The notes beneath the pieces were generated by a model. That model saw only the letters and a program-made list of their open reading frames with translations. It was not told the origin of the DNA and did not search any database. From Planctomycetales bacterium (GTDB lineage Bacteria; Planctomycetota; Planctomycetia; Isosphaerales; Isosphaeraceae), in the NCBI GenBank assembly GCA_027449865.1, contig DAIDKV010000031.1, positions 1-49,170 of the forward strand: a stretch of DNA of 49,170 nt. Direction: 5' to 3'. A program made the position numbers and the translations under genes. Below, in pieces: positions 13,005 to 42,258 of the stretch (its first letter is position 1; each line of letters starts with the position of its first letter).

Positions 13005-13077
13005 GCGCCCGTAGCTCAACGGATAGAGTCGCGGACTTCGAATCCGAAGGTTGTAGGTTCGAATCCTACCGGGCGCG
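13005..13077 (+). tRNA. tRNA-Arg (anticodon UCG)
   Basis: The sequence folds into a complete cloverleaf: a 7-bp acceptor stem (13005-13011 with 13070-13076), a D arm GCTC...GAGT, an anticodon loop CTTCGAA with anticodon TCG at 13038-13040, a 5-base variable loop and a T arm GTAGG-TTCGAAT-CCTAC. The outermost anticodon-stem pair is a G-A mismatch. The discriminator base is G. CCA is not encoded. It reads CGA codons and, by wobble, CGG. The gene borders a stretch of worn, accessory-looking DNA, so its 3' end is a natural candidate attachment site, though I found no second copy of that end in the window. Confidence 0.95.
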
Positions 13078-13671
13078 CTTCAGCCGGGAATTTGTCAGTG
13101 GCTCCATTCCCGGGACAATCTGCGACAAGTCTTCGTAAATTAACAGGTTAGAGCGAGCCTAGGGATTATCTCCGGGCTTTCTCTTTGCGCCCCGAGTGCC
13201 ATCTTGAGTCATTGCGGGCCATGCCGGGCCAGTCTCATACTTCCACCAATACTTCCAAAATGAGGCTCTGAAACCCACTGCTTCGACAGTCGGACCATCA
13301 GCCCTCGCACCCGTTCACAGTCGAGGGATACCTCGGTGGTTCCCAGTGGACGCGCAGCCAGGCTCAAATTCCTTCCAGATGATCTCCCGGCACCGCAGTC
13401 ATCGGAATCGGGCCGCTGACTCGTGTCCAGTCCGCCGCGTCACGCTTTTCGGCCTTTTCTCGAAGGTACCAGAGTCCGCACTCCCCCTTCACAAACGTCC
13501 CGGCTGGGGCCTCACGGGTGCAGGACCTGGATCGCCTCCCTCACGACACGGCCCCGTGATGGAATCTTCTACAAACTGCCTGCCGCAGGCGCCCTATCGG
13601 AATATCCGTTACAGTCGAAGGGTCGTACTGTACGCTTGGCCTAAACCTATGATCCTGTCAATCATCGAGGC
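13078..13671. other. 594-base stretch without an intact gene, behind the tRNA
   Basis: No intact gene is visible. It contains one short minus-strand reading frame that looks like a protein tail (listed separately, 13364-13540). The remainder has no features that I can support. Confidence 0.4.
13364..13540 (-). pseudogene. Probable C-terminal fragment of an unknown protein
   Basis: An open frame bounded by stops encodes 58 residues that read like a natural protein end, including GECGLWYLREKAEKR and WTRVSGPIPMTAVPGDHL. There is no good start codon or ribosome-binding site (a GTG at 13490-13492 is possible). I do not recognise the family. It may be the tail of a gene destroyed when foreign DNA inserted behind the tRNA. 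Confidence 0.3.
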
Positions 13672-18855: not shown

Positions 18856-19179
18856 TCAGGGCCTGTAGTACCCATTGCGAGACAGATACTCCGCCCCTCC
18901 CAGGAATCCGCCACCGAACCCGATCAGTACCCCGAGCGGGCCGAGTGCATTCCATCCCAGGATTGCCCCAAGCCCGCCGATCAGTAACGCGATCATGCAG
19001 CTGAAATCGTTGAAGATCCGGCGTCGGGCCCGGCCTCGAATACCGAGTAGCAGAAGGTCGTAGAACACCTTGAGCCCAAAGGCCTGGTACGAACGCGGTC
19101 GGGGCGGCTTTCCGCCGTTTGGGTAGCGGAGCCGACGGTTCGGACGACTCCGTCTTCGGCCGTGATAGGGTCGGGACAT
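18856..19179 (-). CDS. Small membrane protein, last gene of the Ycf46/clamp-like operon
   Basis: A 107-residue protein beginning at 19179 (MSRPYHGRRRSRPNRR), with GAGGAGGG ahead of the ATG. The first 30 residues are strongly basic, followed by a glycine-rich hydrophobic region (about 60-95, including IALLIGGLGAILGW and LGVLIGFGGGFLGGAEYL) that should form two short TM helices. The basic N-terminus could contact nucleic acid or lipid headgroups. The start is 2 bases from the stop of the gene above it, so the two are co-transcribed. No family recognised. Confidence 0.68.
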   Translation of the reverse strand: MSRPYHGRRRSRPNRRLRYPNGGKPPRPRSYQAFGLKVFYDLLLLGIRGRARRRIFNDFSCMIALLIGGLGAILGWNALGPLGVLIGFGGGFLGGAEYLSRNGYYRP

Positions 19180-19180
19180 C

Positions 19181-19735
19181 TCATCCCTCCTCTCCGGACG
19201 CCGGTTCGATGGCCAGCGCCTCGCGTTCGAGCCGGGTCGGCTCCTCGCCCAGCAACTCGCCGACCTTCTTCCAGAACGACCTGACCTGCGAAGACGAGGT
19301 CGCCAGCCAGATCGAATCCAGCAGATTTTCCCGTTCCGCCCGGAGTCGAAGGACCTGCCGGCCCGTCTCATCCCCGGCGAGGATCTCGGCCTCGTGCAGC
19401 GCCGTTCGTTTGTCGAGGGCCGCCCGGATCTCCGGATGGTCGTGGACGCGGCTGTAGGGATCCAGTTCATCGGCCGGGACGCCGCGGACCCTTGCGAGCA
19501 TCTCGCGGCGGACCTGCGCATCTCGCCGGTCCAGTTCGGCGCGATGACTGGCGATCTGGTCCAGATCTTTCTGAAAGTCGGCCAGGCCGAGTGATTCCAA
19601 AGCCCGGCCCTTCGCCTCGCGGCGGACTCGCTCCATCAGTCCGGGATCGCCGGCAGTGATCGCCTCGATCCTGCGGTCGATCCGGATCTGGATGCGGTCG
19701 CGCCAGTGGTTCTTCTCGGCGACTGTCAGTCCCAT
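19181..19735 (-). CDS. Helical/coiled-coil protein of unknown function
   Basis: A 184-residue, highly charged, mostly helical protein (MGLTVAEKNHWRDRIQIRID at the N-terminus, coiled-coil-like stretches around 45-80 and 110-150). GGGAGGG lies about nine bases before the ATG. There is no TM segment, signal peptide or known motif. Position in the operon, between a clamp-like gene pair and a small membrane protein, suggests a structural or adaptor role in the same complex. Confidence 0.7.
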   Translation of the reverse strand: MGLTVAEKNHWRDRIQIRIDRRIEAITAGDPGLMERVRREAKGRALESLGLADFQKDLDQIASHRAELDRRDAQVRREMLARVRGVPADELDPYSRVHDHPEIRAALDKRTALHEAEILAGDETGRQVLRLRAERENLLDSIWLATSSSQVRSFWKKVGELLGEEPTRLEREALAIEPASGEEG

Positions 19736-19799
19736 AATCGTGACCCTCCCGGTTGTGGTGATCGTGTTCTGGACGCGTACGGACGGGACGTGGGACCGC

Positions 19800-20282
19800 T
19801 CAGACGCCGGCGACTGCCTTGAGAGCGTCGATCAGTTCCGAGGCCTGCCGGATCGACAGGTCCTCGGGGCGGCTGGCGCCGTAATCACGGAGCAACGCGT
19901 CGAGGTCGGCGCGCTGCCTCGAGGCGATCGAGCGGATCGCTCGAACCTGGTTCTCGGGCGCCGGCCGGCGCGGGCGAGATCGCCCGGACGTCGGTCGATC
20001 GACGTGTCCATTGCCGTTGGTGTGGCCGTTCGAGGCCGGGCGGGTCGGAGGGGACGGCGACTCGCAGGGGATCTCGACGGGCGCCTGCAGTCGGGCCAGC
20101 TCATCGTGGACGGCCTGGTGGGCCGCGACATACGCGTCCCGAACCCGGGAGTGGAAGGCGTCCAGGTCGCGATCGAGCAGGGCCGCGTCGACCTCGACCT
20201 GCACGTTGCAACTGGCTCCGATCGAGCCGTAATCCGGGAGCCCCACCTTGCGGCTGACCCCCACGTTCAGCAGTAGCGGCAC
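19800..20282 (-). CDS. Two-domain hypothetical protein with a phage-recombination-like tail
   Basis: A 160-residue protein. GTG at 20282 is chosen because AGGAGG lies seven bases upstream; an ATG 14 codons earlier lacks this. The N-terminal half begins PLLLNVGVSRKVGLPDYGSI followed by a beta-strand segment and helix. A linker rich in Pro, Asn, Gly and Arg follows. The C-terminal 35 residues (LDALLRDYGASRPEDLSIRQ, then ASELIDALK) resemble the small helical tail found at the end of some phage RecT/Erf-like recombination proteins, which is a tentative match from memory. It lies directly after the sliding-clamp-like gene, supporting a DNA-related role. Confidence 0.62.
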   Translation of the reverse strand: MPLLLNVGVSRKVGLPDYGSIGASCNVQVEVDAALLDRDLDAFHSRVRDAYVAAHQAVHDELARLQAPVEIPCESPSPPTRPASNGHTNGNGHVDRPTSGRSRPRRPAPENQVRAIRSIASRQRADLDALLRDYGASRPEDLSIRQASELIDALKAVAGV

Positions 20283-20351
20283 GTTGTTGCCTCCTCGTGA
20301 TGGACGTTCGGACGTGATGGACATCGGGGACGATTCGGTGATCGCGCGGGC

Positions 20352-21824
20352 TCAGCCGGCGGCCTCGACCAGCTTCAACTGCCGGAGCGACTTCAGGGTC
20401 TCGTTCAGAAGCCGCGACTGTTTCCGCTGCCGCCTCAGCCCGGCGACCAGCCGGGCCGATCGGGATTTCATCTCGGCCAGGGCCGCGTGCAGCGACTCGG
20501 CCTCCTGGATCAACGCCGCCAGATTCGTCCCCGGCGACTCGGCCGACGGGATGGACCCGGCGGGCCTGGTGGTCCGACTGTTGCGGTCCTCGGCCGATCT
20601 CAGCGGCTCGTGACCGTTCCTCAATTCGCGCACGGTCGTGGTCCTTGTGTCCTCGATGCTCGTCGGGGCACGACGCTCGCTCCCGGATGCGGCCCCCGAT
20701 GTGATCCGGATCACCTCCGCGTCCTCCGGCGGTTCCGATCCTCCACTGAGCGGCTGGACGGCGTAGATGTGATCTCCGTTTCGGCAGACGAACGGCGACT
20801 CCACGCCGGTGAGACCGACCTCCCGGAACCCCATCTCCAGCGCCCGTTCGAGCAGCACCCGGTTGGTGCAGAGGCTCGCCGGGACACCGGTGTAGCTGGA
20901 CCGATCGAGTACCAGCTCGGTGACCCGATGCGGCCCCTCGGCCGAGATGGCCCGAACGGCGATCTCGCCGTTGAGCTCGATGGTCACCGGGGAATGGATG
21001 TCCCCGACTCCGGGCAGGCGGCCGAGAGCAGTCTGCAGGAAACGGGCGTCGTGATCATCGAGCCGGAGCCGGGTGACGACCTCCGACGGCTGCGGGATGA
21101 CCCGATCCACCTGCGGGAACCGGACCTCCTTCTGGATCGCGCACCACACCGTCCACGGGCCGGCTCGAAGGATCACATGCGTCTCCGTCCGGCCGACCTC
21201 GATGGGTCGATCTCTCGGGATCGACCGGCAGGCGAAGACCGGTCGGGCCCTGATGAGCACGTCGTCTTCCCAGGGGAAGCGGAACCCTGAGCGGACGAGG
21301 AGCTGGCGACCGTCGGTGGCGACGACCTGGCCACGCCGACCCTGGAGCTGGAGGCAGTTCAGGGCGTAGCGGGTTGAGTCGTCGGTGGCCGTCTCGGTCG
21401 CCTCGGCCAGGGCGTCGAGCAGTTCGCCGGGGACCGTCGACCAGTTCGTCGGAAGGGCTGGTATCGGCTCGATTCGATCGATGGACGTGACGAGACTGTA
21501 CTCGCGGATCTGGGGGATACCGCGGTCATCCCAGCGGACAGTCGTTCGGTCGGGGGCTGTCGCCTCGATGGTGACAGGGGACTCGGCGGACCCCTCGAAA
21601 TCCGAGAGGGCGTCGAGCGGGATCGCGACGGTTCCAGCCGATCGGGTTGCCATCGGCTCGACATGCTCGACGGCCAGGTCGGCGTACCGATGTTGCGCCC
21701 TTAGTTGGCCGTTCTCGGCGCGGAACACGAGTTCGCTGACAACACCGCGATGGTTGATGCCCAGAGTCGAGCGACGGAAGACAGTCCGGAGTCGACGGAC
21801 CTGATTGCGCGTCAGGGTGATCAT
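20352..21824 (-). CDS. Sliding-clamp-like protein (DnaN/beta-clamp fold suspected)
   Basis: A 490-residue protein starting at 21824 (MITLTRNQVRRLRT) with AGGAG ten bases upstream. Residues about 1-360 look like three successive domains of the DNA polymerase III beta clamp. The strongest sign is around 148-180: DDSTRYALNCLQL, then VVATDGRQLLV, matching the clamp pattern of an Arg-x-Leu segment followed by ATDGxRL. FPQVDRVIP (about 236-244) matches the segment between clamp domains II and III. After about 370 a flexible linker leads to a helical, basic C-terminal tail (435-490) that beta clamps lack. A housekeeping DnaN is normally in the dnaA region; this is a divergent, operon-borne version. 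Whether it forms a ring or binds polymerases is unknown. Other reading: a scaffold that only shares the fold. Confidence 0.6.
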   Translation of the reverse strand: MITLTRNQVRRLRTVFRRSTLGINHRGVVSELVFRAENGQLRAQHRYADLAVEHVEPMATRSAGTVAIPLDALSDFEGSAESPVTIEATAPDRTTVRWDDRGIPQIREYSLVTSIDRIEPIPALPTNWSTVPGELLDALAEATETATDDSTRYALNCLQLQGRRGQVVATDGRQLLVRSGFRFPWEDDVLIRARPVFACRSIPRDRPIEVGRTETHVILRAGPWTVWCAIQKEVRFPQVDRVIPQPSEVVTRLRLDDHDARFLQTALGRLPGVGDIHSPVTIELNGEIAVRAISAEGPHRVTELVLDRSSYTGVPASLCTNRVLLERALEMGFREVGLTGVESPFVCRNGDHIYAVQPLSGGSEPPEDAEVIRITSGAASGSERRAPTSIEDTRTTTVRELRNGHEPLRSAEDRNSRTTRPAGSIPSAESPGTNLAALIQEAESLHAALAEMKSRSARLVAGLRRQRKQSRLLNETLKSLRQLKLVEAAG

Positions 21825-21879
21825 AAGACAGAATCTCCTGGTGGATGGGATCGATGACGGAGGACGAGGACTCGGATGG

Positions 21880-22191
21880 TCAGGCCGGGATGTAGCGGCG
21901 GCGAGTCGACTCGGCGATCGCGCGAGTGGTGGCAGGAAAAACGTCGTGGTCGGTGAAGCCGAAGTAGACATCGCAGGCGTCGCACTCGGCCATCGCTGTC
22001 GAGCCGTCGCTCGAACGGCCGGGATAAGGCACAGCACTCCGGCAGAACGGGCAGTGGACGACGAGAGTGATATCCTCAGTCGTTGGCTCCTCGTCGGGCA
22101 CGGAGACGATCTGGAATCCGAGGCGGCGGATGACGGCAAGGGACTCGCCGGTGCGGGTCGCGATCCGGTGGTTAAGCTGGGCGCTGGTCAT
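21880..22191 (-). CDS. Small zinc-ribbon protein
   Basis: A 103-residue protein starting at 22191 (MTSAQLNHRIATRTGE), seven bases behind AAGGAGG. The N-terminal 35 residues are helical; then a zinc ribbon is formed by CPFC and CDAC (about residues 51-75), ending in a short helix. Its gene lies 55 bases upstream of the clamp-like gene. The function is unknown; a nucleic-acid or protein adaptor is plausible. Confidence 0.68.
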   Translation of the reverse strand: MTSAQLNHRIATRTGESLAVIRRLGFQIVSVPDEEPTTEDITLVVHCPFCRSAVPYPGRSSDGSTAMAECDACDVYFGFTDHDVFPATTRAIAESTRRRYIPA

Positions 22192-22368
22192 GGTGTCCTC
22201 CTTCCCGCGCTGCCCGCGTGCCACCACTCCCGGCGCGCACCGACCCCACGGCCGGCGCGCGTCGGGAGGGGACACGACAGGGCCGGGCGCGGGGGTGTCG
22301 TAGGGGTGGTGAAGAATGCGGCGGTCGAGGGCGATCGCGATCGACGAGGCGAAGGGGGTAGACGATGT

Positions 22369-22614
22369 TCAGATCGGACGGGTGAGCCAGTGGTTCTCCA
22401 GCCAGTCGAGTTCGGCCTGCAGGGCCTCGCTGCGACGGCCGAACGGCCCGAGGACCGGCCCGCCCACCGGCGTCAGGTCGGCCTGCCAGAGGCCTTCCTG
22501 CGTGGGTTCGACGTGACTCGCCCGAGCGATCGTCGGGTGTCCGATCGCAGAGAGGTCGATCGCCTCCTGGTAGATCGACAGAACGGTCCCATCGGGCTGG
22601 ACGAGCAGCTTCAT
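22369..22614 (-). CDS. Small conserved-type hypothetical protein
   Basis: An 81-residue protein whose ATG overlaps the stop of the 330-aa gene by 4 bases, so it is translationally coupled. It has the pattern RASHVEP ... WQADLTPVGGPVLGPFGRRS then a final helix EALQAELDWLENHWL. I remember similar small proteins on phage-like or accessory elements but cannot name the family or function. Confidence 0.7.
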   Translation of the reverse strand: MKLLVQPDGTVLSIYQEAIDLSAIGHPTIARASHVEPTQEGLWQADLTPVGGPVLGPFGRRSEALQAELDWLENHWLTRPI

Positions 22615-23603
22615 GACGCGTCTCCGGATGCCGGTGCCGGACCCCGAAGGATCCGCCGCCGCGGCCGGTCGACGAGCATCGCATCGAGCGAGGCCTGGAC
22701 CCGCGAGAGCTGGGTCGCCACCTGCGACCGGAGGTTTTCGCTGTCGCGCAGGTCCTGGGCGCCGACGTTCCGGACCGCCCGCTGAGCCTGTGTGACCAGA
22801 TCGTCGAGTTGCTGGTTGCTCCTTATGTTCAAGGACCGGAACCGATCGAAGAACGAGTCGAGGTTTTCGACGGCCGAATCACGAAATACCTTCGGCGTGC
22901 CGTCGTCGTTGGCCCCCGTGATCCTCTCGGTCAGGTGGCCGACCAGGCGGGCGAAATCTTCGAGGAACGCCTGCTCGGCCAGGCGGACGGCCTCCTCGAA
23001 CCGGGCGCGGACCCGCTCCTGCTCGCGCTGATAGAGCTCGGGCGAGAGCTGGACCAGATAGTCGGGCGGGTCGATCGCCGGATAGTCCCACGCGACGCCG
23101 AAGAGGCCACGGAGAGTCTCCGGATAATCTCCAGGGTTGAACAGCGATCCGAGCCGCAGCGAGGCGGCCCGCTTCAGCTCGTCGAAGTGGCGGTCGAGAT
23201 TGGCGACCGCGTCGTCGAGTTCCGCTCGATAGTCCGTCATCATGCGATCGAAGGACGCGAGGTCCTCCTGCTTGATGAGTCGGACGCCGGGCTCGGGAAA
23301 GGGCAGTGAGAGACCCTTCCAGGTGTCGACGATCTTCGTGCGGATCGCCGTGACGGCGCGGAAGGCGGTGTGCTTCGTGTCGAGCAGTTTCTTGCCGGCC
23401 GAGAGGAACGGACCCTCGGCATCGAAGGCCTGGGCGGCCTGGGCCTTCTGCTCGGCGGTCAGGGCACGCTGGACGCCCCACCACGTGAACTGGACGCGGC
23501 AAGCGGCCATGGTGGTCCGCAGCCGCTCGGCCGGGGCGGTCGGCGTGGGGCGATTCCAGCCCTCGGCGACCGGGGATTCGAGGTTGTCGAGCAAGGTGGG
23601 CAT
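22611..23603 (-). CDS. 330-residue helical protein of unknown function
   Basis: Starts at 23603 (MPTLLDNLESPVAEG) behind GGAGGAG. It is soluble, almost entirely helical and rich in Arg, Asp and Glu, with recognisable segments VQFTWWGVQRALTAEQ, KKLLDTKHTAFRAVTAIR and VENLDSFFDRFRSLN. The organisation somewhat recalls DUF3150-type proteins that accompany AAA+ ATPases on integrative elements, but I hold this only as a possibility. Located between the AAA+ ATPase and the clamp-like gene, it is a good candidate for a structural partner or substrate of the ATPase. Confidence 0.7.
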   Translation of the reverse strand: MPTLLDNLESPVAEGWNRPTPTAPAERLRTTMAACRVQFTWWGVQRALTAEQKAQAAQAFDAEGPFLSAGKKLLDTKHTAFRAVTAIRTKIVDTWKGLSLPFPEPGVRLIKQEDLASFDRMMTDYRAELDDAVANLDRHFDELKRAASLRLGSLFNPGDYPETLRGLFGVAWDYPAIDPPDYLVQLSPELYQREQERVRARFEEAVRLAEQAFLEDFARLVGHLTERITGANDDGTPKVFRDSAVENLDSFFDRFRSLNIRSNQQLDDLVTQAQRAVRNVGAQDLRDSENLRSQVATQLSRVQASLDAMLVDRPRRRILRGPAPASGDAS

Positions 23604-23730
23604 GTCTCCTCCTGGGCAAGGAATGAGGCGGCCGACCACCGGGGCCGACCGCCTCGTGAATGTGCTATCGCATGTTGATGAAATTCCAATCGCGTGGGAC
23701 ATTTGCAGTCGTCGGGCTGCTCGTCAGGCT

Positions 23731-23853
23731 TCAGCCCTCCTCCTCGAGCACTTCGGTGATCCACTCGATCGTCTCGATGTTCCACGTTCGTTCGCGGATC
23801 TCCTCGACGATCTCCGCGAGTTCTTTGAGGGGCAGCTCGGATAGCGACTTCAT
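23731..23853 (-). CDS. Forty-residue acidic peptide
   Basis: A short gene starting at 23853 (MKSLSELPLKELAEIVEEIR) with GGGAG upstream. It is amphipathic and acidic, ending IEWITEVLEEEG. Although short, its spacing in the operon, ribosome-binding site and non-random composition support it being real. Function unknown; perhaps a small regulatory subunit. Confidence 0.5.
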   Translation of the reverse strand: MKSLSELPLKELAEIVEEIRERTWNIETIEWITEVLEEEG

Positions 23854-23937
23854 CCGTCGGCTCCCATGGTGGCCCTCGGATACGAGGAAGCTGACAAATC
23901 GCGGGGCGTTCCCTTCCGACACCCCCAACCTGTCGGC

Positions 23938-24279
23938 TCATCGCACAATCCCGGGGATCGGGATGCCGCAGGTCGTAGGCGACCAGTCGGCCGGGTCGAG
24001 GGGGACAACCCTCAGCTCACCGTCGTAATCGCCGGTAAAGACGGCTGGCTCGGTTGCATACCGGCCCAGCGAGCCGAGGATCGCGTCGAGCTCGTCGGCC
24101 CCGTCATCGGTGAACTCCGAACCGCCGCGGAACGTCAGCTCGATCGTCCGTGAGCCGGCGTCCTCGGTGATGACCTCGAACTCATCGCCCCGCAGGTCGC
24201 GGAGTTCGTCGAGGATCGATTCGACCTCGGGACATCGGCGGAGCCGCGCCGTGCCCGAGATCAGATACCAGGTACACAT
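23938..24279 (-). CDS. Small hypothetical protein behind the AAA+ ATPase
   Basis: A 113-residue protein starting at 24279 (MCTWYLISGTARLRRC) about seven bases behind a full AAAGGAGG. It has alternating strands and helices (ESILDELRDLRGDEFEVITE, then TIELTFRGGSEFTDDGADEL) in an alpha/beta layout somewhat like small ferredoxin-like domains. It follows the ATPase gene by 88 bases. No family recognised. Confidence 0.68.
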   Translation of the reverse strand: MCTWYLISGTARLRRCPEVESILDELRDLRGDEFEVITEDAGSRTIELTFRGGSEFTDDGADELDAILGSLGRYATEPAVFTGDYDGELRVVPLDPADWSPTTCGIPIPGIVR

Positions 24280-24367
24280 CTCGAAACCTCCTTTCGTTGC
24301 CATCCAGGCAGTCAGATGGGCCGATGCCGGCCCTCGCAACCACCGGCAGCCCGGACCTGCGGACTCA

Positions 24368-25861
24368 TCAATTGGCGTTTGGTTCGCCGCGGTGGACGCT
24401 CCGCCCCGAGCGGGGCATCCCATTGCCCTCGCGTGAGTAGACGCCCGGTCGGTCGGCCGACAGGCACCGACCTGCCGCCCACTGCCGGAGCTTCTCGACC
24501 GACTCGCCGGCCGTGACGGCCACCGGGACGATGTTCGTCGCCGCCTCGATCAGCGGGACGTCAAGCAACGCCGCGAGCCGGCAGCACGATCGGATCTCGG
24601 CGCCGGTCCAGTCTCGCGATTCCGGACGACGCTGATCCGGGTCCAGGCCGAACCTGCGCACATACATCGACCAGATCTGCTCGCGCTGCTGGAAGCCGGG
24701 CAGGTCGAGGAAATAGATGGCGTCAAACCGTTCGGCCCGACTCAGCTCGGCCGGCAGCCTGGAGATGTCGTTCGCCGAGGCGACCACGAAGACGTCGCTT
24801 TCGTGGTCGCTGAGGTAGGTCAGCAGCGTGCCGAACATCCGCGTCGAGACGCCGCTGTCACCCGAGCCACCCACGCCGCTGAGGGCCTTCTCCAGCTCAT
24901 CAATCAGAACAACGCAGGGCGCCATCGCGTCAGCGATCCGCAGGGCCTGGCGCGTCCGTTCCTCGCTCTGGCCGATCAACGAGCCCATGAGTGAACCGAC
25001 GTCAAGGAACAGCGTGGGCCGTCCCGTCTCGTGGCCCAGGGCCTTTGCGATCGCGCTCTTGCCCGTACCGGGCGGACCGAGCAGGAGCACGCCGCGAGCC
25101 CGGACGTCCGATCGGCGACCTGGTCTCAGGGCGCGGGTGCAGAACGATTTCAGGGCGTCCAGCCCACCCAGGTCGGCGAAGGTCTCGCCGCCACGGTGGA
25201 GGGTCAGCAGGCCGCTCTTCCTGAGCGACTGCGCCTTCAAATCCCAGAGGACCTCGGGAGCCAGCCGGCCGTGGCGGACCAGGCTCAGGGAGAAGGCGTT
25301 CTCGGCCTCAACCCGGGTCAACCCGGCCGCGGCATCGAGGACAGCGTCCAGGCCGTCACCGTCGGGCAACTCGCCCGGCTCGGTGGCGACCCCGCGGGCG
25401 ATCGTCCCGATCTGATCGCGGGCAGGCAGATCGTGCTCGATCACAGCGAACTGGCGCTCCAGCTCGACCGGGATCTGGACGACCGGCGCCAGCACGACAA
25501 CGAAGGTCCGGGCCGTCCGTCCAGCGGCGATGGCCGAGTCGAGAGCCTGGATGACCTCGACGTTGCTGGTGAACCGGTGGTAGTTGCGGAGCACGAGGAG
25601 CGACGTGCCCTCGGGATTGGCCATCGCACCGAGGGCCCGAATCGCGGCTAGCGGATCACCGGCGCTGACCGCCGTGCCGGGTTCCGATCCCCGGCCGACG
25701 AGGTTCAACCCGCGGTCGATGTCCCAGGTGGCCAGATTCCAGCCCTGCTCTCGGCAGAGGCGGGCGATCTCGGCGATCGCATCGTCGTGCTCGTAACTCT
25801 GAATCCAGAGGCCCGTGAAGGCAGCGCGGACGTACTCCGCAAGGCGCTCGGCGAGCGTCAT
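24368..25861 (-). CDS. Ycf46-like AAA+ ATPase
   Basis: A 497-residue protein. Residues 1-210 form an N-terminal domain like that of Ycf46 (DIDRGLNLV, LLVLRNYHRFTSN near 88-100, VVVLAPVVQIPVELERQF near 121-138). Residues about 225-470 form a classical AAA+ domain: Walker A GPPGTGKS (262-269), Walker B VVLIDELEK (317-325), sensor 1 in VVASANDISRLP and an arginine-finger region at SRAERFD. The last 30 residues are basic and may be disordered. AAGGAGC precedes the ATG. Ycf46 proteins are known from cyanobacteria, chloroplasts and various bacteria, with a reported connection to carbon use but no clear biochemical role. Two other members of the Ycf46 association, DUF2997 and DUF1257, lie directly upstream. 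Confidence 0.85.
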   Translation of the reverse strand: MTLAERLAEYVRAAFTGLWIQSYEHDDAIAEIARLCREQGWNLATWDIDRGLNLVGRGSEPGTAVSAGDPLAAIRALGAMANPEGTSLLVLRNYHRFTSNVEVIQALDSAIAAGRTARTFVVVLAPVVQIPVELERQFAVIEHDLPARDQIGTIARGVATEPGELPDGDGLDAVLDAAAGLTRVEAENAFSLSLVRHGRLAPEVLWDLKAQSLRKSGLLTLHRGGETFADLGGLDALKSFCTRALRPGRRSDVRARGVLLLGPPGTGKSAIAKALGHETGRPTLFLDVGSLMGSLIGQSEERTRQALRIADAMAPCVVLIDELEKALSGVGGSGDSGVSTRMFGTLLTYLSDHESDVFVVASANDISRLPAELSRAERFDAIYFLDLPGFQQREQIWSMYVRRFGLDPDQRRPESRDWTGAEIRSCCRLAALLDVPLIEAATNIVPVAVTAGESVEKLRQWAAGRCLSADRPGVYSREGNGMPRSGRSVHRGEPNAN

Positions 25862-25978
25862 GAGGCGGCTCCTTTTCTTTAGTCGATGGAAGGTCGGAAG
25901 GGAGGGACGACGTCGTCCGTCACGGTCAGAATTGGGGTTGTTGCTCCTCGCGATTCTCCCGACAGGAGGAGACCAGAG

Positions 25979-26173
25979 TCACTGCGACTGCTGGATTCGC
26001 GGCTCGGCCTGCTGGTTCTGATAGAACTCGGCCGTGAGTTGCTCGTTCGTCGATGTGCCGAGGGCCTGCTCCAGGAACCGGCTGGCCTCACGGCACGCAC
26101 CACCCGAGAAGCCCTTCGTCTCGACCCTCGTCTCGCCCTTCGGGCCGACGATCACGCGGAGGACCTTCTTCAT
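25979..26173 (-). CDS. DUF2997 protein
   Basis: A 64-residue protein with the DUF2997 pattern: a short strand-turn VIVGPKGETRVETKGFSGGA followed by CREASRFLEQALG. Its start overlaps the DUF1257 stop by 4 bases and has GGAGG six bases upstream. DUF2997 genes usually sit beside DUF1257 and a Ycf46-like ATPase; their function is unknown. Confidence 0.82.
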   Translation of the reverse strand: MKKVLRVIVGPKGETRVETKGFSGGACREASRFLEQALGTSTNEQLTAEFYQNQQAEPRIQQSQ

Positions 26174-26538
26174 GACTGGCCTCCGATCTCGATCTCGACC
26201 AGGATCGAACCATCGGCCAGGGACTGCTCGGTCGTGACGTAGTTCTTCTTGCGGGCCTCGGCGCGGGCTCTCTCGACCGCGTACATCTGCAGGAAGCGGT
26301 GGAGGTGCTTCTCGTCACCCCAGGCACCTCCATAGTTGTCGTAGCGGACGCTTCCACTGACGGTGTCGATGACGACCGGGTAGAGCCAGTCGGGAAGCCG
26401 GACGAGCAGGCCGCTCATTGGACCGCTATAGAGCTGGGCCTTGCCCTCGACCGGCTCGGGCAGAGAGAGCCGACGGCAGGCGGCCGTGACCGCGGATGGG
26501 TCGCGGACCTCGGTCTGGACCGTGACGATGTGCGACAA
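26170..26538 (-). CDS. DUF1257 (Ycf35-like) protein
   Basis: A 122-residue protein starting with TTG at 26538, six bases behind GGAGG. The start is decided by the family N-terminus SHIVTVQTEVRDPSAV; a longer in-frame extension to an ATG has a poor context. Further family features are QLYSGPMSGLLVRLPDWLYP and VRYDNYGGAWGDEKHLHRFL. DUF1257/Ycf35 is conserved in cyanobacteria and chloroplast genomes of some algae with no known function. It is the first gene of the operon. Confidence 0.82.
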   Translation of the reverse strand: MSHIVTVQTEVRDPSAVTAACRRLSLPEPVEGKAQLYSGPMSGLLVRLPDWLYPVVIDTVSGSVRYDNYGGAWGDEKHLHRFLQMYAVERARAEARKKNYVTTEQSLADGSILVEIEIGGQS

Positions 26539-28117: not shown

Positions 28118-30022
28118 ATGCAGATCCAGGCTCGGCCGGGACGGGAACTTATCATCCGGAAGGTTATCGAACTTGGCGAGGCCCTCTCCAGGTCAGTCGA
28201 TCACACAGTTGCCGACTCGTTGGGGGCTATCATCCAGACCTTCCGTCGCGAATCCTTCACGATCGCGATTATGGGGAAGGCCAAGCGGGGTAAGTCGACT
28301 CTGATCAATGCCCTGCTCGGCCGGACCGATGACCTGGTGGCCCCCGTCGACCGGTTGCCCGCCTCGAGCGCCGTCTCCCGCTTCCGTTATGCGGCCGCCG
28401 AGAAGGCCACCGTCTCTTACAGGGAGGGCAGGTCTGAGGTTATCTCGCTCGATTGCATCCGGGAATACGTGACCGAAGAGTCGAACCCCGGCAATCGTAA
28501 GGGCGTGGGTGTCGTCGAGGTCGAGGGGCCGTTTCCCGGGCTACAGGACGGACTGATCCTCGTCGACACACCTGGGGCCGCCTCGATTCACGAGCACCAC
28601 GATCAACTCCTCCATCAGTTCATCCCCGAGGCCGATGCGGTGATCTTCCTGGTAACGGCCCGGATGCCGCTCGACCAGGACGAGTTGGATCTGCTGCGCG
28701 AGATTCGGGTCGCTGACATCCGGAAGGTCTTCTTCGCGATCAACCGGGTCGATGAATGTTCCGAGGGCGACCTCCGTGATGCAATCAATCACAATCGGCA
28801 GCTCCTGCGGTCGGTCGGCCTGGCGATCGACCTCATCCATCCGATCAGCGCCCGGCAGGCGTTCCGGGGCCAGGTGGGGACCAGCGGCCTACCCACCCTG
28901 GCAACGGATGTCTCGGCCTTCATCGGGCAGCACCGGGCGAGGGTCCTCGAGGAGCGGTTCATCGCCCGCGTGATGGCAGTGGTCGAGCCAACCCTGAGGG
29001 ACCTGGAGTTCGAGATGGCGACGACCCGCAAGGCGGACGTCGAGTTGCGGGAGGAACTGGAGTCGCTCCGCCGCCGCCGGGGCAGCATCGAGGCGACGCG
29101 TGACCTCGCCGAGCGCGAGTTCCTCCACGCCTGGAACGATGCCCTGGATCGAATGGAACAGGCTCTCGATGTCGAGCAAGGCCGGGTCCGGGCCGAGCTG
29201 GTCCGCCACGTCAATGGCGCCGGGGTACTCGACATCCGCAAGCTGGCTGACGATCTGCCCACCTGGCTGAACCGGACGATCGAGGACCACCTGATGATCG
29301 TCGGCCAGTCCTTCGAGGAGAGGGCTCGCGCCGCCTGCGAGAAGCTGCAGACCGAGTATCCGGCCCTGGGTGTCCAGGAGGGTACCGGCGTCGTGCTCCG
29401 GACGCGGGCGGGGAATGAGTTGATTTCGGGGGCCATTGGCGGGGTGGCGTTGACGGCCACTGGCATCGGAGTTGCCAGCGCCGCGGGTACAGCTGCGGCA
29501 GGGATCGCCGCCGCCAACGCGGCGGCCCTGGCGGCGACCACGACGGTCTCGGCACCCTCACTTCTGGCATCTTGGCTGGTCGCCCTGGGGTTTGGCGAGC
29601 TGGCCCCTCTGGCCACTGGTACGGCAACCGTGGTGGCGCCGGCGGCCCTCACCGCGACACCGTTCTGGGTCGCGCTGGGTGGGCCAGTCGGTTGGACACT
29701 GGCCGGAATTGGGGCGCTGGCAGTCCCGTTCTCGTGGCACCTCTCGCGGACCCGGCTCCGAGATCGACTGGAGGCCGAGGGGATCGAGCAGGTGGATCGC
29801 GTCTTCCTGCACATCCGTAAGGATCGCCTACCGGCGCTCCGCAAGATGGCCCGATCGATCGCGGGCGAGTTCCGGCTCCGCCTGGATCGGCAGATCGCCG
29901 GCCTCGAGGAGGCCATTGCCAAAGCGATGAGCCGACCAGCCGCGAGCCCTCAACTCGACGATCGAGCAGCCCAGATCGCCCGCATTCGTGAGATCCTTGA
30001 CCAGATTCGCTCGCGAGCATGA
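28118..30022 (+). CDS. Dynamin-like GTPase with hydrophobic hairpin
   Basis: A 634-residue protein starting at 28118 (MQIQARPGRELIIRK) behind GGAGGAGG. The G domain has P-loop GKAKRGKST (53-61), a DTPGA G3 motif (about 149-153) and NRVD as G4 (about 209-212), typical of dynamin-family or GTPase-of-immunity-like proteins. Residues 290-420 are a long helical stalk with coiled-coil pattern. Residues about 437-541 are strongly hydrophobic, rich in Ala, Gly and Thr, and should insert as two or more membrane helices or a hairpin, as in bacterial dynamin-like proteins. The C-terminal helix returns to the stalk. Such GTPases remodel or sense membranes; some bacterial ones protect against phages. It leads a four-gene operon. 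Confidence 0.82.
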   Translation: MQIQARPGRELIIRKVIELGEALSRSVDHTVADSLGAIIQTFRRESFTIAIMGKAKRGKSTLINALLGRTDDLVAPVDRLPASSAVSRFRYAAAEKATVSYREGRSEVISLDCIREYVTEESNPGNRKGVGVVEVEGPFPGLQDGLILVDTPGAASIHEHHDQLLHQFIPEADAVIFLVTARMPLDQDELDLLREIRVADIRKVFFAINRVDECSEGDLRDAINHNRQLLRSVGLAIDLIHPISARQAFRGQVGTSGLPTLATDVSAFIGQHRARVLEERFIARVMAVVEPTLRDLEFEMATTRKADVELREELESLRRRRGSIEATRDLAEREFLHAWNDALDRMEQALDVEQGRVRAELVRHVNGAGVLDIRKLADDLPTWLNRTIEDHLMIVGQSFEERARAACEKLQTEYPALGVQEGTGVVLRTRAGNELISGAIGGVALTATGIGVASAAGTAAAGIAAANAAALAATTTVSAPSLLASWLVALGFGELAPLATGTATVVAPAALTATPFWVALGGPVGWTLAGIGALAVPFSWHLSRTRLRDRLEAEGIEQVDRVFLHIRKDRLPALRKMARSIAGEFRLRLDRQIAGLEEAIAKAMSRPAASPQLDDRAAQIARIREILDQIRSRA

Positions 30023-30023
30023 C

Positions 30024-31160
30024 ATGACGCCCACAGCCGACGATGCCTCGCCACCCGCGGCCACCGGGACGATGGACATGGACTGGGCTGGACTCCTGTC
30101 CCTGACGAACGAATTGCTGATGCTGGTCCACGAGACGGAACTGTACCACAAGTGCCGCCGGGTGGCCTCAGCACTGGGCGATGCCCGGAGGAGTCTGGTC
30201 GCGATCCGGCGTCGTATCGAGCAGTCCGGCAGGCGCGACGTGGTGGCTGTCGTTGGCCTGACGAATGTTGGGAAGTCGACCCTTCTCAACGCGCTCCTGG
30301 GCGAGGAGTTCGCCCCTCGTCGCAACCGCCCCTGTACCTCGATCCCGATCGAGTTCTGCCACGGCCCTAGCCTGGGCGTGACGGTTTACTACGAGGAGCG
30401 GCTCGAGCGGCCTACCTGGCGGTTCGACACACCCCGCGAGGTCCACGGGTGCCTGGAGCGACTCGGCGAGGGCGAAGGCGGAACGGCTCGCGGGGCGATC
30501 CGGCGGATCGAGGTTACCCTGCCGAGTCCGCTCCTGGCCGGTGGCCTGGTGATCGCTGACACTCCGGGCTTCGGCGCGGGTCAGGTTGGCGAGGCAGCCG
30601 GCAGCCATGAGGCGGCCCTTCGGGGTTACCTTGAACGGGATGTGACACGAGTGTTCTGGGTGGTGCTGGCCGACCAGGGGATCGGCCGGCGCGAGGTTGA
30701 GTTCCGCGACCAGTTCTTCGCGAGGGTCTGTGACGATCTGGTGATCACGGGTTGCGAGGACTGGGACGTTGATGACCGGGCTCGATTCCGGGCTCGCTAC
30801 GCGGACTCCTTCGGTCACCGGGTGCCCGCGTTTCATTTCGTCTCGGGGTTGCAGGGCCTGGATGCACGGCGAAACGCCGACGAGCGAGCCCTCGAGGACG
30901 CGGGGATCGTGGAGCTAGAGCGCCGGATTCGCGACCTGGCGAATCCGGAGGATCGGCTTCGCTCGGCCTCGGAGGAGCTTGTCCGCCTGACAGAGGATCT
31001 CGCGTACTGGCTGTCCGGCTACCACGACGATCGCAGTCGGCCGCTTACCCTCTGGTGGCGTCCCGATAGCTGGTCCCGCTGGCTTGCGATCGACCGCCCC
31101 GCCCCGCTGAAGCAATCCCTGGATCGGCGACTGGTCCGGCGCAGGCTGCATCCCGGCTGA
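30024..31160 (+). CDS. Second P-loop GTPase of the operon
   Basis: A 378-residue protein whose ATG lies 1 base after the stop of the dynamin-like gene. P-loop GLTNVGKST (78-86), a threonine-rich switch I area (PCTSIPIEF) and DTPGFG as G3 (about 179-184) make it a TRAFAC-class GTPase. The G4 motif is unusual: TGCEDWD occupies the place where NKxD or TKxD is expected, so nucleotide specificity may be altered. There is no membrane span, but an N-terminal helix could contact its partner. It could be the second member of a heteromeric dynamin-like pair, as in paired bacterial systems, which is an inference. Confidence 0.78.
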   Translation: MTPTADDASPPAATGTMDMDWAGLLSLTNELLMLVHETELYHKCRRVASALGDARRSLVAIRRRIEQSGRRDVVAVVGLTNVGKSTLLNALLGEEFAPRRNRPCTSIPIEFCHGPSLGVTVYYEERLERPTWRFDTPREVHGCLERLGEGEGGTARGAIRRIEVTLPSPLLAGGLVIADTPGFGAGQVGEAAGSHEAALRGYLERDVTRVFWVVLADQGIGRREVEFRDQFFARVCDDLVITGCEDWDVDDRARFRARYADSFGHRVPAFHFVSGLQGLDARRNADERALEDAGIVELERRIRDLANPEDRLRSASEELVRLTEDLAYWLSGYHDDRSRPLTLWWRPDSWSRWLAIDRPAPLKQSLDRRLVRRRLHPG

Positions 31161-31226
31161 TTCGTTCACCATATTCCGCTGGCGGAGATGTCTGCTGGAC
31201 CCGGAGGACCGATAGGGTTTCGATCC

Positions 31227-32543
31227 ATGTCGAACAAAACCCAGGGCGGCGCTGGGAAATCGACCAGCCCCACGATTGCGATTATCGGGACGGAAGGCTC
31301 TGGCAAAACAGTCCTGACCGCTGTGCTCGCGCGGCGATTCGGACACCTTGACCTCAACAGACTCGATGCTCAGCTCGTGTTCCTGAACCCACAAAACGTT
31401 GCGACGATGCGCTATGTGGAGCGGGTCTGGCAGGTCCTGCAGGGCGGGGACTGGCCACCTTCCACGCCGCCGGGCGAGTTGTTCGAGCTTCGCTGGAAGT
31501 TCGAAGTCCGGGGTGAGGACATGGAATGCCAGGTCCGCCTGATCGACGCGGCAGGTCAAGATCTGAGGCTCCTGTTCGGCGAGGAGAAGATCCATCGGAT
31601 GGAGGATCTGCCGGAGTCTCTCCGCGAACTGGCCGCCTATTGTCGTTCGGCCGACATCGTGCTCTTCCTCGTCAACCTCAAGGACTTTGAGGGCGAGGGC
31701 GATGCGCTCCGACGTACGGACAACGAGGCGGCCATCAAGATCGCCATGGATTACCTGAGCCAGGTCGATCGGCGGCGTCGATTCTGCGTCGTATTCACCC
31801 AGGCGGATCTGTATCGGGAGAGGGCCCGATTAAGGGAGGGTTGGTTGGCCCTGGCCTCGGAGATCATCCCCTACATCACCGGGGCCTATCTGCAATCCAT
31901 CCGGATCCCGATGGGCGACCGTGTTCCGGTCTTCCCCGTGTCGGCGGTCAACCGGACGAGAATCGCCGTGGACGATCAGGGCGTCCCGAGACGCGTGCCA
32001 GATCCGCCCTTCGGGTCGGACGGGCTCGAAGTCGTCGTCGAGTGGATGACGACTCAGGTGCGGGAGATCCACAGGCTCCAGAATCCGCCTCCAATTCCTT
32101 CCGTTCCACCGAAGCCGGAGGGCCTTTTCGAGCGTGCCGATGAATGGCTTGGGCAGGGCTGGCGACAGATCGCAAAGGTCGCGCCTTTTGTGGCGAAGAT
32201 CGCTGTCGGGGCACTTGTCTTGGCGATGATTCGCTCCTGCTCCGGGGGCTGGGCTCCTTCAGAACCGACTGGCCCGGTACCTGTCGTGACCGAGGCACGC
32301 TGGCAGAAGAACCCGGGGCTTTTCGACGACACCGTGACCTCGTTCGGGACCGTCCGGAATAACGGGAAGGCCGGTAAGATCACCGTCACATCCTGGGTCA
32401 TCGAGAACGGAAGCCAGGCCGATCGCCGTAGCCAGAGTTTCTTCCTCAAGGCCGGGGAATCGACCCGATTCCAGATCGAGTTGCCCGGCATTTACAGCGT
32501 GCGCAATCCCCACGAGGTACAGACCGTGGCGACCGCGGAGTGA
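31227..32543 (+). CDS. Membrane-tethered GTPase (double-GTPase-like type)
   Basis: A 438-residue protein with P-loop GTEGSGKT (21-28), G3-like LIDAAGQD (about 105) and FTQADLY (about 190) as base-recognition segment. Such Glu/Ala-containing variants recall the DO-GTPase families described in bacterial conflict systems, a match from memory. Residues about 318-335 (KIAVGALVLAMIRSC) form one TM helix, and the final 100 residues form a beta-rich domain (FDDTVTSFGTVRNNGKAG) probably outside the membrane. The start at 31227 has AGGG nine bases upstream; an ATG at 31188 is possible but its GGAG touches the start codon. It lies 66 bases after the second GTPase. Confidence 0.7.
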   Translation: MSNKTQGGAGKSTSPTIAIIGTEGSGKTVLTAVLARRFGHLDLNRLDAQLVFLNPQNVATMRYVERVWQVLQGGDWPPSTPPGELFELRWKFEVRGEDMECQVRLIDAAGQDLRLLFGEEKIHRMEDLPESLRELAAYCRSADIVLFLVNLKDFEGEGDALRRTDNEAAIKIAMDYLSQVDRRRRFCVVFTQADLYRERARLREGWLALASEIIPYITGAYLQSIRIPMGDRVPVFPVSAVNRTRIAVDDQGVPRRVPDPPFGSDGLEVVVEWMTTQVREIHRLQNPPPIPSVPPKPEGLFERADEWLGQGWRQIAKVAPFVAKIAVGALVLAMIRSCSGGWAPSEPTGPVPVVTEARWQKNPGLFDDTVTSFGTVRNNGKAGKITVTSWVIENGSQADRRSQSFFLKAGESTRFQIELPGIYSVRNPHEVQTVATAE

Positions 32544-32562
32544 GACGCCTGGGACATCTGCC

Positions 32563-33714
32563 ATGACGACATGCCGGTTCGCCCTCTATGACCCCGCGCA
32601 ACCCTCTCCAGGCGGCTCCTACTGGGCCTGGATCGCGCAAGGCCTCGACGTCGCCCGACTGAACCGGCTCTACTACGAGGCCGCCGTCCGGAACCGCCCG
32701 CCGGATCCGAACCGTCTGCCCCCCGAGAAGATCTGGGGCGGGATCGTCGACATGGGCGACGACCTTGTCGGCATCTATCGCTACTTTGACGGAGGTCGGG
32801 ATGCTCGGGGGCGTCCAGGCCGATTCGTGATTCTGGTGGCCCTCCTGGCGCAGGATGAAGTCCTGGGCAGGGATCTCTCGCCCATCTTCCTCTGCGAGAC
32901 GGCACGCCGGGTCGCGCTGCGGGCACCGGAGGAATGTCCCCTGGCGATCCCCACCAGCCTTGAGGAGGAGGTCGAATTACCGATAACGACAAGCAACGGC
33001 ACCGCGATGTTCTTGCCAGGCGACCCGTCCTGGCATCGTAAAATCCGCCCTGGGGCAAGCCCCGGAGAGCCCCCCTGGATTCATGACGAGGAGCGTGTTG
33101 CGCCACGCGAGGCAACGATCCGGAGCGCAGGGATTGAGGGCGAAGAGGGGGCCGCACCAACGCGATCGGAATCGGACCAGGCCGATTCGTCTCCTCAGTT
33201 TTGCGTTTCTCTCGACGAGATCCGGGTTACCCTTTTGGGATTCGCAAGGTCCGTGATCGGTCGTATTATCTTCGCTTGCATGATACTTCTACTCCTGTAC
33301 GACATCTGGAGCTTTTTCCCCAGCAGCCCGATCGTGCCGATTCCAGACCAGCCGAGCGTGACGACCAACATCCCTGTCACCACTCCAAAAACGCCCAGGA
33401 GTTTACGTTTTCTCGATACGCGCGGGGTACGCCCAAAGAGGTTGCTGAGCAAGCCGAACCCCAGCACGCCCCTTACGAGACATCTCGACACGCGAGCGGA
33501 AGGTGATGTGCTTGTTGAGGGCGACTCGTCCTCGGACTGGTCGTCAGGAAGGACGGGCAAGGTTTACTCCAACATACCGGTCGAGTCGGAAGATAGCGGG
33601 TTGTGGTGGACGATGATCACGGTTCTGCTCATGATCTTTGCCGCGGTCGTGTTCCCGATCATTTTCGCTCTCGTGAGGTTCCTCCTGATCCAACGAGGAA
33701 GAGGGCGAAGTTGA
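32563..33714 (+). CDS. Two-TM partner protein of the GTPase operon
   Basis: A 383-residue protein of unknown family, starting 19 bases after the membrane-tethered GTPase. Residues 1-130 form a compact domain (GSYWAWIAQGLDVARLNRLY, then GIYRYFDGGRDARGRPGRF, then VILVALLAQDEVLG) that may be a GTPase-associated regulatory domain of the GAP1 kind, unproven. A first TM helix is near 240-255 (IIFACMILLLLYDIW), then a long, poorly ordered, probably exposed segment, and a second TM helix near 345-372 (WTMITVLLMIFAAVVFPIIF), with a basic tail. Its ribosome-binding site is weak, so it may depend on coupled translation. Confidence 0.68.
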   Translation: MTTCRFALYDPAQPSPGGSYWAWIAQGLDVARLNRLYYEAAVRNRPPDPNRLPPEKIWGGIVDMGDDLVGIYRYFDGGRDARGRPGRFVILVALLAQDEVLGRDLSPIFLCETARRVALRAPEECPLAIPTSLEEEVELPITTSNGTAMFLPGDPSWHRKIRPGASPGEPPWIHDEERVAPREATIRSAGIEGEEGAAPTRSESDQADSSPQFCVSLDEIRVTLLGFARSVIGRIIFACMILLLLYDIWSFFPSSPIVPIPDQPSVTTNIPVTTPKTPRSLRFLDTRGVRPKRLLSKPNPSTPLTRHLDTRAEGDVLVEGDSSSDWSSGRTGKVYSNIPVESEDSGLWWTMITVLLMIFAAVVFPIIFALVRFLLIQRGRGRS

Positions 33715-39750: not shown

Positions 39751-39763
39751 TGGGGAATTGATC

Positions 39764-40689: not shown

Positions 40690-40831
40690 CGCCCATCGGG
40701 AATGGGACGCCGATTGGTAGTTATGGCCTCGCAGCGTCGGCTGGAGGCGTCGAAGTCGCCAATCCCGTGGAGCCAGGCTCTTACGGCCCCCCGGTAATTC
40801 GTGGTCGGCAGAGCGAATTGTATTCTGTCTC

Positions 40832-41752: not shown

Positions 41753-42151
41753 CGCCTCCTCGTGGATGACCGCCCTTATCCGCGTCGTGTCCTCAGCAGG
41801 ATGCAGTGATCGCCGAACGGGGCTGGTCGTCGCCCCGAAATCCTGTCTCTTTGCTTGCGATCATAGCTCTCCCGTGCCAGGAAACCAGCGGTTACCGAGT
41901 GACGCCGAGCATTCGGCCCTGCATCTAAGCCGGAGCGAAGCCGGCAGCGGACTTGAGCGGTGGCCTCCCGATCGACCGAGGCGGCATTATGGAGTCGAGC
42001 TTGGACGATCAAGCGCTCGCTGGCGTCGGTGGCGACGGCACCGGAGTCGGGCCTCAACTAATAGGGTAGCGACCATTCGATTGGAGAGACGGCGGGGCGT
42101 AACACCGTTTATTGCCCTCGCCCTGCGACGGATTCATCTCGCAGCATTCTC

Positions 42152-42180
42152 TTGATCGAGTACGTCGGGCCGGATAATCT
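42152..42180 (+). promoter_or_regulatory. Promoter of the DISARM-like operon
   Basis: TTGATC (42152-42157) and TAATCT (42175-42180) are separated by exactly 17 bases, 79 bases upstream of the helicase start. The rest of the 506-base divergent gap (41753-42258) holds no gene that I can support. Confidence 0.5.
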
Positions 42181-42258
42181 AGGGAGCCTGAGTCAATACA
42201 ACCACCCAATCGGATCGGTGCCGACCGGACTCGAACGCCGTAAGTTCAGCGAGGAACG

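Follow-up and report, generated by a model that had tools for sequence, protein, structure and literature searches.

The locus described here raises the question of why an AAA+ ATPase and a sliding clamp should be encoded together in one bacterial operon. It lies in a 49,170-nt stretch (hereafter the window; contig DAIDKV010000031.1) of the Planctomycetales bacterium assembly GCA_027449865.1, which totals 8.48 Mb in 278 contigs, and consists of twelve same-strand open reading frames (ORFs; g01-g12) on the minus strand, spanning 26538-18856. A GGAG is present within 22 nt upstream of every one of them, so that the preliminary description of twelve co-oriented genes with ribosome-binding sites holds. 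Our tentative answer, in which we place somewhat less than even confidence and which is drawn from sequence comparison, is that the operon would be a variant form of an AAA+ remodeller that is mobile and modular and acts at DNA through a private clamp, its most likely use being conflict with phages or plasmids. Homology, gene order, recurrence, the swapping of modules, conserved catalytic and pocket residues, and purifying selection on g03-g09 are the observations from which this answer is built.

The clamp is the product of g09 (20352-21824, 490 amino acids [aa]), which had been described as clamp-like and can now be named more firmly. Single-sequence Pfam searches with g09 returned nothing significant; its profile led to DnaN structures (7rzm, E 1.2e-8), and it matched PHROG 947, "DNA polymerase processivity factor," at 5.4e-10. 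An AlphaFold2 model with a predicted local distance difference test (pLDDT) score of 82 retrieved DnaN in Foldseek at E 2.4e-22, and its residues 1-362 superpose on DnaN as a three-domain fold (Z ~30 over 342 residues). Judged by these profiles and this model, g09 is a true three-domain DnaN paralogue, and another DnaN of the same genome is encoded on a different contig. With bacterial DnaN in general g09 shares the three-domain fold and the loop of the peptide pocket, whereas it differs in its sequence (~15% identity), in a disordered linker (379-431) that leads to a long C-terminal helix (432-489), and in its location in an accessory operon. Of 27 full-length clamps, 26 retain T170 and D171 and 25 retain L176 in the TDG loop, which we take to form the peptide-binding pocket. 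Taken together, the pore helices are net basic (median +4, range -1 to +8), the domain-1 helix strongly so (mean +4.0). That the protein forms a ring, is loaded onto DNA, contacts the motor, and has the biological role proposed below is what we infer.

The ATPase itself, g03 (24368-25861, 497 aa), has the clear AAA+ domain that had been reported (PF00004, 4.7e-28; bpMoxR only 0.026), which we take to be of the Ycf46 type. Its best PDB profile matches are AFG2 and Cdc48/VCP (E 1e-49 to 1e-46) and its matches to clamp-loader families are weak (PHROG 168, 6e-6; the NCBIfam model of the RFC large subunit, 0.0043), suggesting that it is a protein remodeller rather than a clamp loader. Across 10 sequences, residues that presumably correspond to Walker A, Walker B, and the two arginines of the second region of homology are invariant. 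The window genome holds a second full-length relative of g03 (7.9e-100), which may be a housekeeping form and whose neighbors include a PilT-like gene and a further DUF2997 gene (2.9e-15); here and below, the labels PilT-like, integrase, transposase, RadC, and RecA-like come from reading the sequence by eye and not from a family scan.

Around the ATPase stand small proteins that recur with it. At the head of the conserved core, g01 (26170-26538, 122 aa, TTG start) is a DUF1257-like (Ycf35-like) protein with 30-57% identity to plasmid and planctomycete relatives. Its score against PF06868 (13.3 bits, E 0.1) falls below the 22.2-bit cut-off, yet it aligns throughout its length with a Manganitrophus plasmid protein (L031) that is annotated as DUF1257 and itself scores 19.2 bits, and for this reason we call g01 DUF1257-like only; a search of the window's own genome with the PF06868 family found no match at 1e-3. 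The earlier assignment of g02 (25979-26173, 64 aa), which adjoins g01 in core loci, to DUF2997 is secure (PF11211, 57.5 bits against a cut-off of 24.1, E 1.2e-15). What had been called a large helical protein, g06 (22611-23603, 330 aa), proved to be a DUF3150-like protein and a well-conserved partner of the ATPase: in tblastn it shares 31% identity (4e-33) with a DUF3150-annotated protein of the same Candidatus Manganitrophus plasmid, which in turn matches PF11348 at 1e-8, and it is 51-63% identical to eight planctomycete relatives. Window g06 had no match in Pfam, PF11348 included, and its AlphaFold model is poor (pLDDT 66.5), with no Foldseek match at E ≤0.001. The core is completed by g07 (22369-22614, 81 aa), found in 58 loci, and g08 (21880-22191, 103 aa), in which an N-terminal motif is conserved and which is 56-75 aa long in ten relatives. 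The zinc ribbon previously seen in g08 exists in the window but is not a conserved feature, its two CxxC pairs occurring in 2 of 59 g08 proteins, those of the window and of its nearest relative, L064. The twelve operon proteins gave no Pfam match to a VWA domain.

These genes recur together. Of 294 planctomycete genomes searched with g09, 10, all of one class, gave matches at E <1e-40, at 11 loci with the window counted, and 8 of the 10 relatives' loci have the order g01-g02-g03-g06-g07-g08-g09. Planctomycetes bacterium Pan216 and Candidatus Laterigemmans baculatus are examples of named strains that keep this order, and both are represented among the 15 loci returned by a clamp scan of named genomes. 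A g06 profile matched 29 of 392 planctomycete genomes, with up to five full copies in a genome; its 61 places reduce to 53 loci when 8 fragments or second pieces are left out. The earlier description had held that the linkage of clamp and core would be chance if clamp homologues were never found next to DUF1257/Ycf46 genes, and we find them there regularly. In a first set of 69 loci (from which the plasmids L031-L033 and L075, a duplicate of L022, are left out), a clamp is present in 34, with g06 beside it on the same strand in 29 (counting a 43-aa fragment in L066 and a copy cut by the contig end in L072) and g03 as well in 26; in one of the five clamp loci without g06 the sequence begins at the clamp. 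The second set comprised 40 clamp loci. Upstream sequence of 6 kb or more is available for 34 of them; g06 accompanies the clamp in 23 of these 34, and both g03 and g06 are on the same strand in 20. Because L254 and L255 repeat L065 and L073, the new loci number 32, with g06 in 21 and both genes in 18. This set was chosen from a ranked list (most new places to E ~1e-100, then some weaker) and was thus not random, several of its loci share a genome, and list rows at E 1e-10 to 1e-14 were taken to be ordinary DnaN. From the counts in both sets, we conclude that the linkage of clamp and core is real, if not universal. Chance linkage, considered as an explanation, was rejected on the co-occurrence in 29 of 34 and 21 of 32 loci.

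What recurs is a unit of about eight genes rather than the full twelve. The same order in many planctomycetes and the presence of the core on plasmids bear out the expectation that the block would recur, but the full set of twelve was rejected as a recurrent unit: g04 and g05 have relatives only in L064, g11 in L071 and L258, and g12 in L257 and L269. These relatives were sought with single-sequence profiles, so distant ones could be missed. L064 (Planctomycetales bacterium isolate clean381) is the nearest relative of the window, its g03-g09 proteins being 78-95% identical to those of the window, and comparison of the two reveals purifying selection on all seven genes (dN/dS 0.08-0.22; 0.11 for g03 and 0.08 for g06). 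The comparison covers g03-g09, since g01, g02, and g10-g12 are absent from the L064 contig. Low dN/dS indicates that g04, g05, and g08 behave as real genes.

What stands beside the core varies from locus to locus. Of the 53 g06 loci, 18 have the clamp (3 of these with a nuclease in addition), 14 have a ubiquitin-like module instead, 3 have the nuclease without the clamp, and 18, some on short contigs, have neither. The nuclease of the relatives, C1, is a RecB/Cas4-type PD-(D/E)XK enzyme (PF12705, 5.8e-36) in which H64, D160, D173, K175, Q192, Y196, C264, C267, and C273 are invariant among 8 sequences, one of them without its N-terminus. It follows g10 (19800-20282, 160 aa, GTG start), which consists of an N-terminal domain, an Asn/Gly-rich linker, and a C-terminal motif, in the relatives that have such a nuclease. 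The ubiquitin-like module comprises a ThiS-like protein (4.6e-6), a ThiF-like E1 (1.1e-20), and a cysteine-rich protein that matches no Pfam family, joined in some loci by a JAB-like protein whose match (4.9e-4) is under the Pfam cut-off. Around window g06, from -7 to +8.5 kb, the families X1, X4, and X21 of this module (Ubl/ThiF/JAB) are absent, ParB not having been part of that search. On a tree of 84 g03 rows, a quick tree with long branches, the clamp label changes at least 8 times and the ubiquitin-like label at least 6 times on starred branches, and these repeated changes argue that the modules have been exchanged on the same core. The two modules occur together in three loci, L071, L263, and L277. 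In L263 a GTPase set is inserted, and g01-g02-g03 lie beyond it at a distance of 9-10 kb upstream; L277 has g06 divided between two ORFs and yielded no g03 on the upstream side; and L071 has no g03 in the 3.6 kb before g06, other copies being present in the genome. The clamp and g10 were also seen without the AAA core in the examined stretches of L262, L265, L270, L278, L022, and L028, followed by the nuclease in all but L270. A protein of ~200 aa without a Pfam match, X7, lies directly upstream of g03 in nine loci (e.g., L118:12924-13553).

Private clamps are not confined to this ATPase. In L281, the genes ahead of a divergent clamp without the core encode a bpMoxR ATPase (2.3e-51), a protein whose weak match to VWA (7.5e-4) is under the cut-off, and DUF6744 (2.6e-10); in L286, another divergent clamp accompanies a further AAA_5 ATPase together with two proteins, one of them DUF6744-like and the other DUF2201 VWA-like (1.1e-22). 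Divergent clamps of this kind are those of L281-L288, and the MoxR cluster was found in 7 of the 15 loci that were clustered. Since divergent clamps follow MoxR-type ATPases, private clamps pair with at least two AAA+ clades. An exact 500-base stretch, perhaps a transposon, is common to L286 and L079, which belong to different families.

The core also travels on phages and plasmids. When viral contigs were scanned with patterns of g06, g10, and g09, nothing was returned, and phage records gave no match to g06 or to the g10-like protein of L121; a profile later found g06 on viral contigs after they had been scanned for the ATPase. That g03 profile scan gave 84 relatives, of which 80 were kept (L167-L246), with identity of up to 54-56% (roughly 50% in the ATPase of the closest core-bearing phages), ten of them on contigs of 197-205 kb; ten pairs among the 80 share an exact 500-mer. 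By profile, g01, g02, g03, and g06 occur together in 53 of the 80 viral loci, 40 in the order of the window, 12 as g03-g01-g02-g06, and 1 in another order, and a C1-like nuclease is present in two of the 80. In 36 viral loci selected for the presence of g06 and for long flanks, a terminase large subunit gene lies near the core in 25 (PF05876, 5.5e-13 for the one member scanned), and from this neighbor we take the core-bearing contigs to be tailed phages. Relatives of the nuclease were found in 17 phage and 5 plasmid records, all at <60% identity. Among plasmids, those of Geminocystis and Paenibacillus have DUF1257, DUF2997, and the ATPase together, and that of Thermovibrio has the same trio by profile, its two small genes pointing away from the ATPase; a Paenarthrobacter plasmid has the ATPase and DUF2997 and a Treponema plasmid the ATPase only. 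The Manganitrophus plasmid carries ATPase-DUF1257-DUF2997-DUF3150, and its PRTRC genes as well as those for ParB, toprim, and a helicase lie no more than 25 kb away. In the distant planctomycete G020, the nuclease, g06, and g03 share one contig with RadC-, DUF1257-, DUF2997-, and g10-like ORFs recognized by eye, and a second contig has g10, C1, and g06; no clamp was seen on either. A RecA-like ATPase adjoins the core in the G275 and G328 loci. The Mycobacterium phage Firecracker (L248) was seen to encode a related AAA-ATPase, a ParB-like protein, a Ku-like protein, and a "DNA polymerase processivity factor," the last cut at the edge, within a 17-kb stretch.

We propose that the constant core of g01, g02, g03, g06, g07, and g08 would form a protein-remodelling motor with dedicated partners, and that in the window this motor is joined to a private clamp, g09, with g10, which in many relatives a RecB/Cas4-type nuclease follows. 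The clamp would most likely be placed on DNA, a task that presumably falls to the host clamp loader since none of the twelve genes was recognized as encoding one, and would then serve as a platform on which the motor and its partners may pull or unfold proteins on clamp-bearing DNA, while g10 and, where present, the nuclease might process that DNA as cargo of the clamp. Of the joint readings, one in which the remodeller clears proteins off DNA in this way would be the simplest. A role in conflict is suggested by DrmD-like, type I R-like, NERD-kinase, and integrase-like neighbors, by multiple copies in a genome, and by the exchange of modules. Encoded divergently from the operon are a DrmD-like helicase (in L023 by PADLOC, in L021 and L025 by clustering), a type I R-like protein (L026), and a NERD-kinase (L027). 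Several observations weigh against this proposal. The core is absent from 11 of the 34 clamp loci in the second set and lacks a clamp in 35 of the 53 g06 loci, some of these on short contigs, and g08, g09, and g10 are absent from the examined stretches of the 80 phage contigs. Four of the six g09 pore helices are approximately neutral or acidic on average, the clamp body has a net charge of -6.9, and the clamps of L026 and L027 are shortened to about 270-283 aa. The window has no C1 nuclease, and its DrmD gene is ~16 kb away. A PADLOC comparison revealed no clear enrichment of defence genes: 181 models were matched with 110 neighbors out of 166 as against 107 with 110 random controls out of 253, three of the neighbors matching DrmD models and the control set happening to include a CRISPR locus. 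In ten of the twelve operon proteins, PADLOC 2.0.0 matched the AAA domain alone (IetA and TRIP13). Carriage by phages and plasmids, finally, fits a role in recombination or upkeep just as well.

The last point is the substance of the explanation that most nearly competes, in which the operon is a module for recombination, repair, or replicon upkeep that stems from phages or plasmids and serves its carrier element, not defence. The clamp, g10, and the RecB-type nuclease would then handle DNA ends and the AAA core would remodel a repair complex. The tailed phages, ten of them with the core on 197-205-kb contigs, are what this explanation would lead one to expect, as are the plasmid and replication genes close to the Manganitrophus core, the G020 contigs, where g10 and the nuclease accompany the core and where a RadC-like gene is also present, the RecA-like neighbor in G275 and G328, and the related AAA, ParB, Ku-like, and DnaN-like proteins gathered in one 17-kb stretch of Firecracker. 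We nonetheless consider it rather unlikely, because the operon in the chromosomal loci that we read is not within a recognized phage or plasmid and the alternative module of ubiquitin-like protein, E1, and JAB is hard to read as DNA repair. The genome with five g06 copies (G361) also speaks against it, in that the copies lack a shared larger element: the operon and a tiny ORF are common to them and no further family occurs in three or more. Two of the copies, L113 and L114, were seen to have the same transposase-like gene of ~405 aa downstream.

The preliminary description had instead suggested that the ATPase acts like a loader or remodeller on a DNA-bound ring, and the presence of an AAA+ protein and a clamp in one operon, with g03 in 26 of 34 clamp loci and together with g06 in 18 of 32 others, would accord with loading or unloading. 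We reject the clamp-loader reading of g03 on its AAA matches, which are of the Cdc48/VCP type and only weak for loader models. The core, moreover, occurs without a clamp in 35 of 53 loci and on phages, and divergent clamps pair with MoxR-type ATPases instead, and that the ATPase loads or unloads its private clamp thus seems very unlikely. It is likewise highly improbable that two independently mobile sets, the AAA core on one side and g08, clamp, g10, and nuclease on the other, merely share islands without a joint function. Clamp modules without the core in the six loci named above, and the 18 of 53 core loci with neither module (some on short contigs), are what such independence would produce, but it is at odds with the fixed order and strand over several families, the 4-nt overlaps inside the core, the purifying selection on all seven testable genes, and the linkage of core, g10, and nuclease in G020 at great sequence distance. 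A bolder form of the remodeller proposal, which we consider improbable, would make the system the equivalent in bacteria of the Cdc48/p97-ubiquitin-PCNA axis of eukaryotes. A Cdc48-type motor with fixed adaptors, found also in giant phages and plasmids, would then extract or unfold proteins from DNA, and what steers it would be either a private clamp or a module for ubiquitin-like conjugation, both of which are present in L071, L263, and L277.

Comparison with known systems turned up no described equivalent of the proposed remodeller with a private clamp. The cyanobacterial and plastid genes resemble the operon in having Ycf46-type AAA, DUF1257, and DUF2997 genes side by side. A passage of PMC4284462 states the cluster duf2997-ycf35(DUF1257)-fed7; the partner there is a ferredoxin, and DUF3150, a clamp, g10, and a nuclease are not named in that passage. 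PRTRC plasmids have a DUF3150-like gene beside a VWA-like gene (Paraburkholderia) or flanked by an AAA ATPase on one side and a VWA-like gene on the other (Rhodovastum), with PRTRC genes nearby that include ThiF and proteins A-C on the Paraburkholderia plasmid and proteins B and C on the Manganitrophus plasmid. These plasmids differ from the window in that no clamp is annotated beside their core, and the window operon differs from them in being without Ubl, JAB, and ThiF nearby. IetAS is a defence pairing of an AAA protein with a protease, and its likeness to the operon (PADLOC, 2.4e-16) is confined to the AAA domain, the operon partners being different. The MoxR-vWA ternary conflict systems, reportedly the work of Kaur et al. 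in 2020, offer a further comparison: divergent relatives of g09 are preceded by bpMoxR and by a gene with a weak match to VWA. As set out in PMC7159879, those systems likewise have an AAA+ ATPase, fixed partners, and variable extra parts and occur in planctomycetes; the window ATPase differs in being of the Cdc48 type and without a VWA match. The terms "clamp," "DnaN," "Ycf46," and "DUF1257" do not occur in the main text of that paper, nor "DnaN" and "Ycf46" in the main text of PMC12839542. A passage of PMC10954446 reports an AAA antitoxin of the SpoVK/Ycf46/Vps4 group. Literature searches, mostly of papers outside subscription, found no mention of DUF3150 and, on clamps and conflict systems, nothing on this arrangement. 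No described system matching the operon was found with PADLOC or in the literature searches, in keeping with the earlier suggestion that the arrangement would be a new system.

The remaining genes of the operon and its surroundings belong more to the window than to the family. Between g03 and g06 lie g04 (23938-24279, 113 aa, dN/dS 0.17) and g05 (23731-23853, 40 aa, dN/dS 0.22), and the operon ends with g11 (19181-19735, 184 aa) and g12 (18856-19179, 107 aa), a small membrane protein by eye. The several 4-base overlaps once counted come to two only, g01/g02 and g06/g07; one further pair is 1 nt apart, and the other gaps are 55-177 nt. Divergently upstream on the plus strand (28118-33714) are a dynamin-like GTPase, a 362-aa protein, a double-GTPase-like protein of 438 aa, and a 383-aa protein, and this four-gene set recurs at 36-56% identity between g03 and g06 in G609 (L289:3384-8164), the only other examined locus with it. 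Farther out (36379-45414) are a STAND/HerA-like protein of 1123 aa, an Mrr-type restriction enzyme, and the DISARM DrmD helicase (PADLOC E 0). As a candidate attachment site, the tRNA-Arg gene at 13005-13078 gave no support, its last 15-25 bases having no second copy in the window.

Neither PADLOC nor the literature searches turned up an AAA+ system in which a dedicated sliding clamp is an exchangeable component. If the proposal is true, it would link the role-less Ycf46, DUF1257, and DUF2997 genes, the ubiquitin-like modules of plasmids, and clamp-directed processing of DNA. Orphan families would gain a setting in which they can be tested, and the phage-borne core could be compared with the chromosomal one. 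The finding reaches wider than a single operon, to a mobile AAA+ core common to chromosomes, giant phages, and plasmids, on which clamp-nuclease and ubiquitin-like modules are exchangeable.

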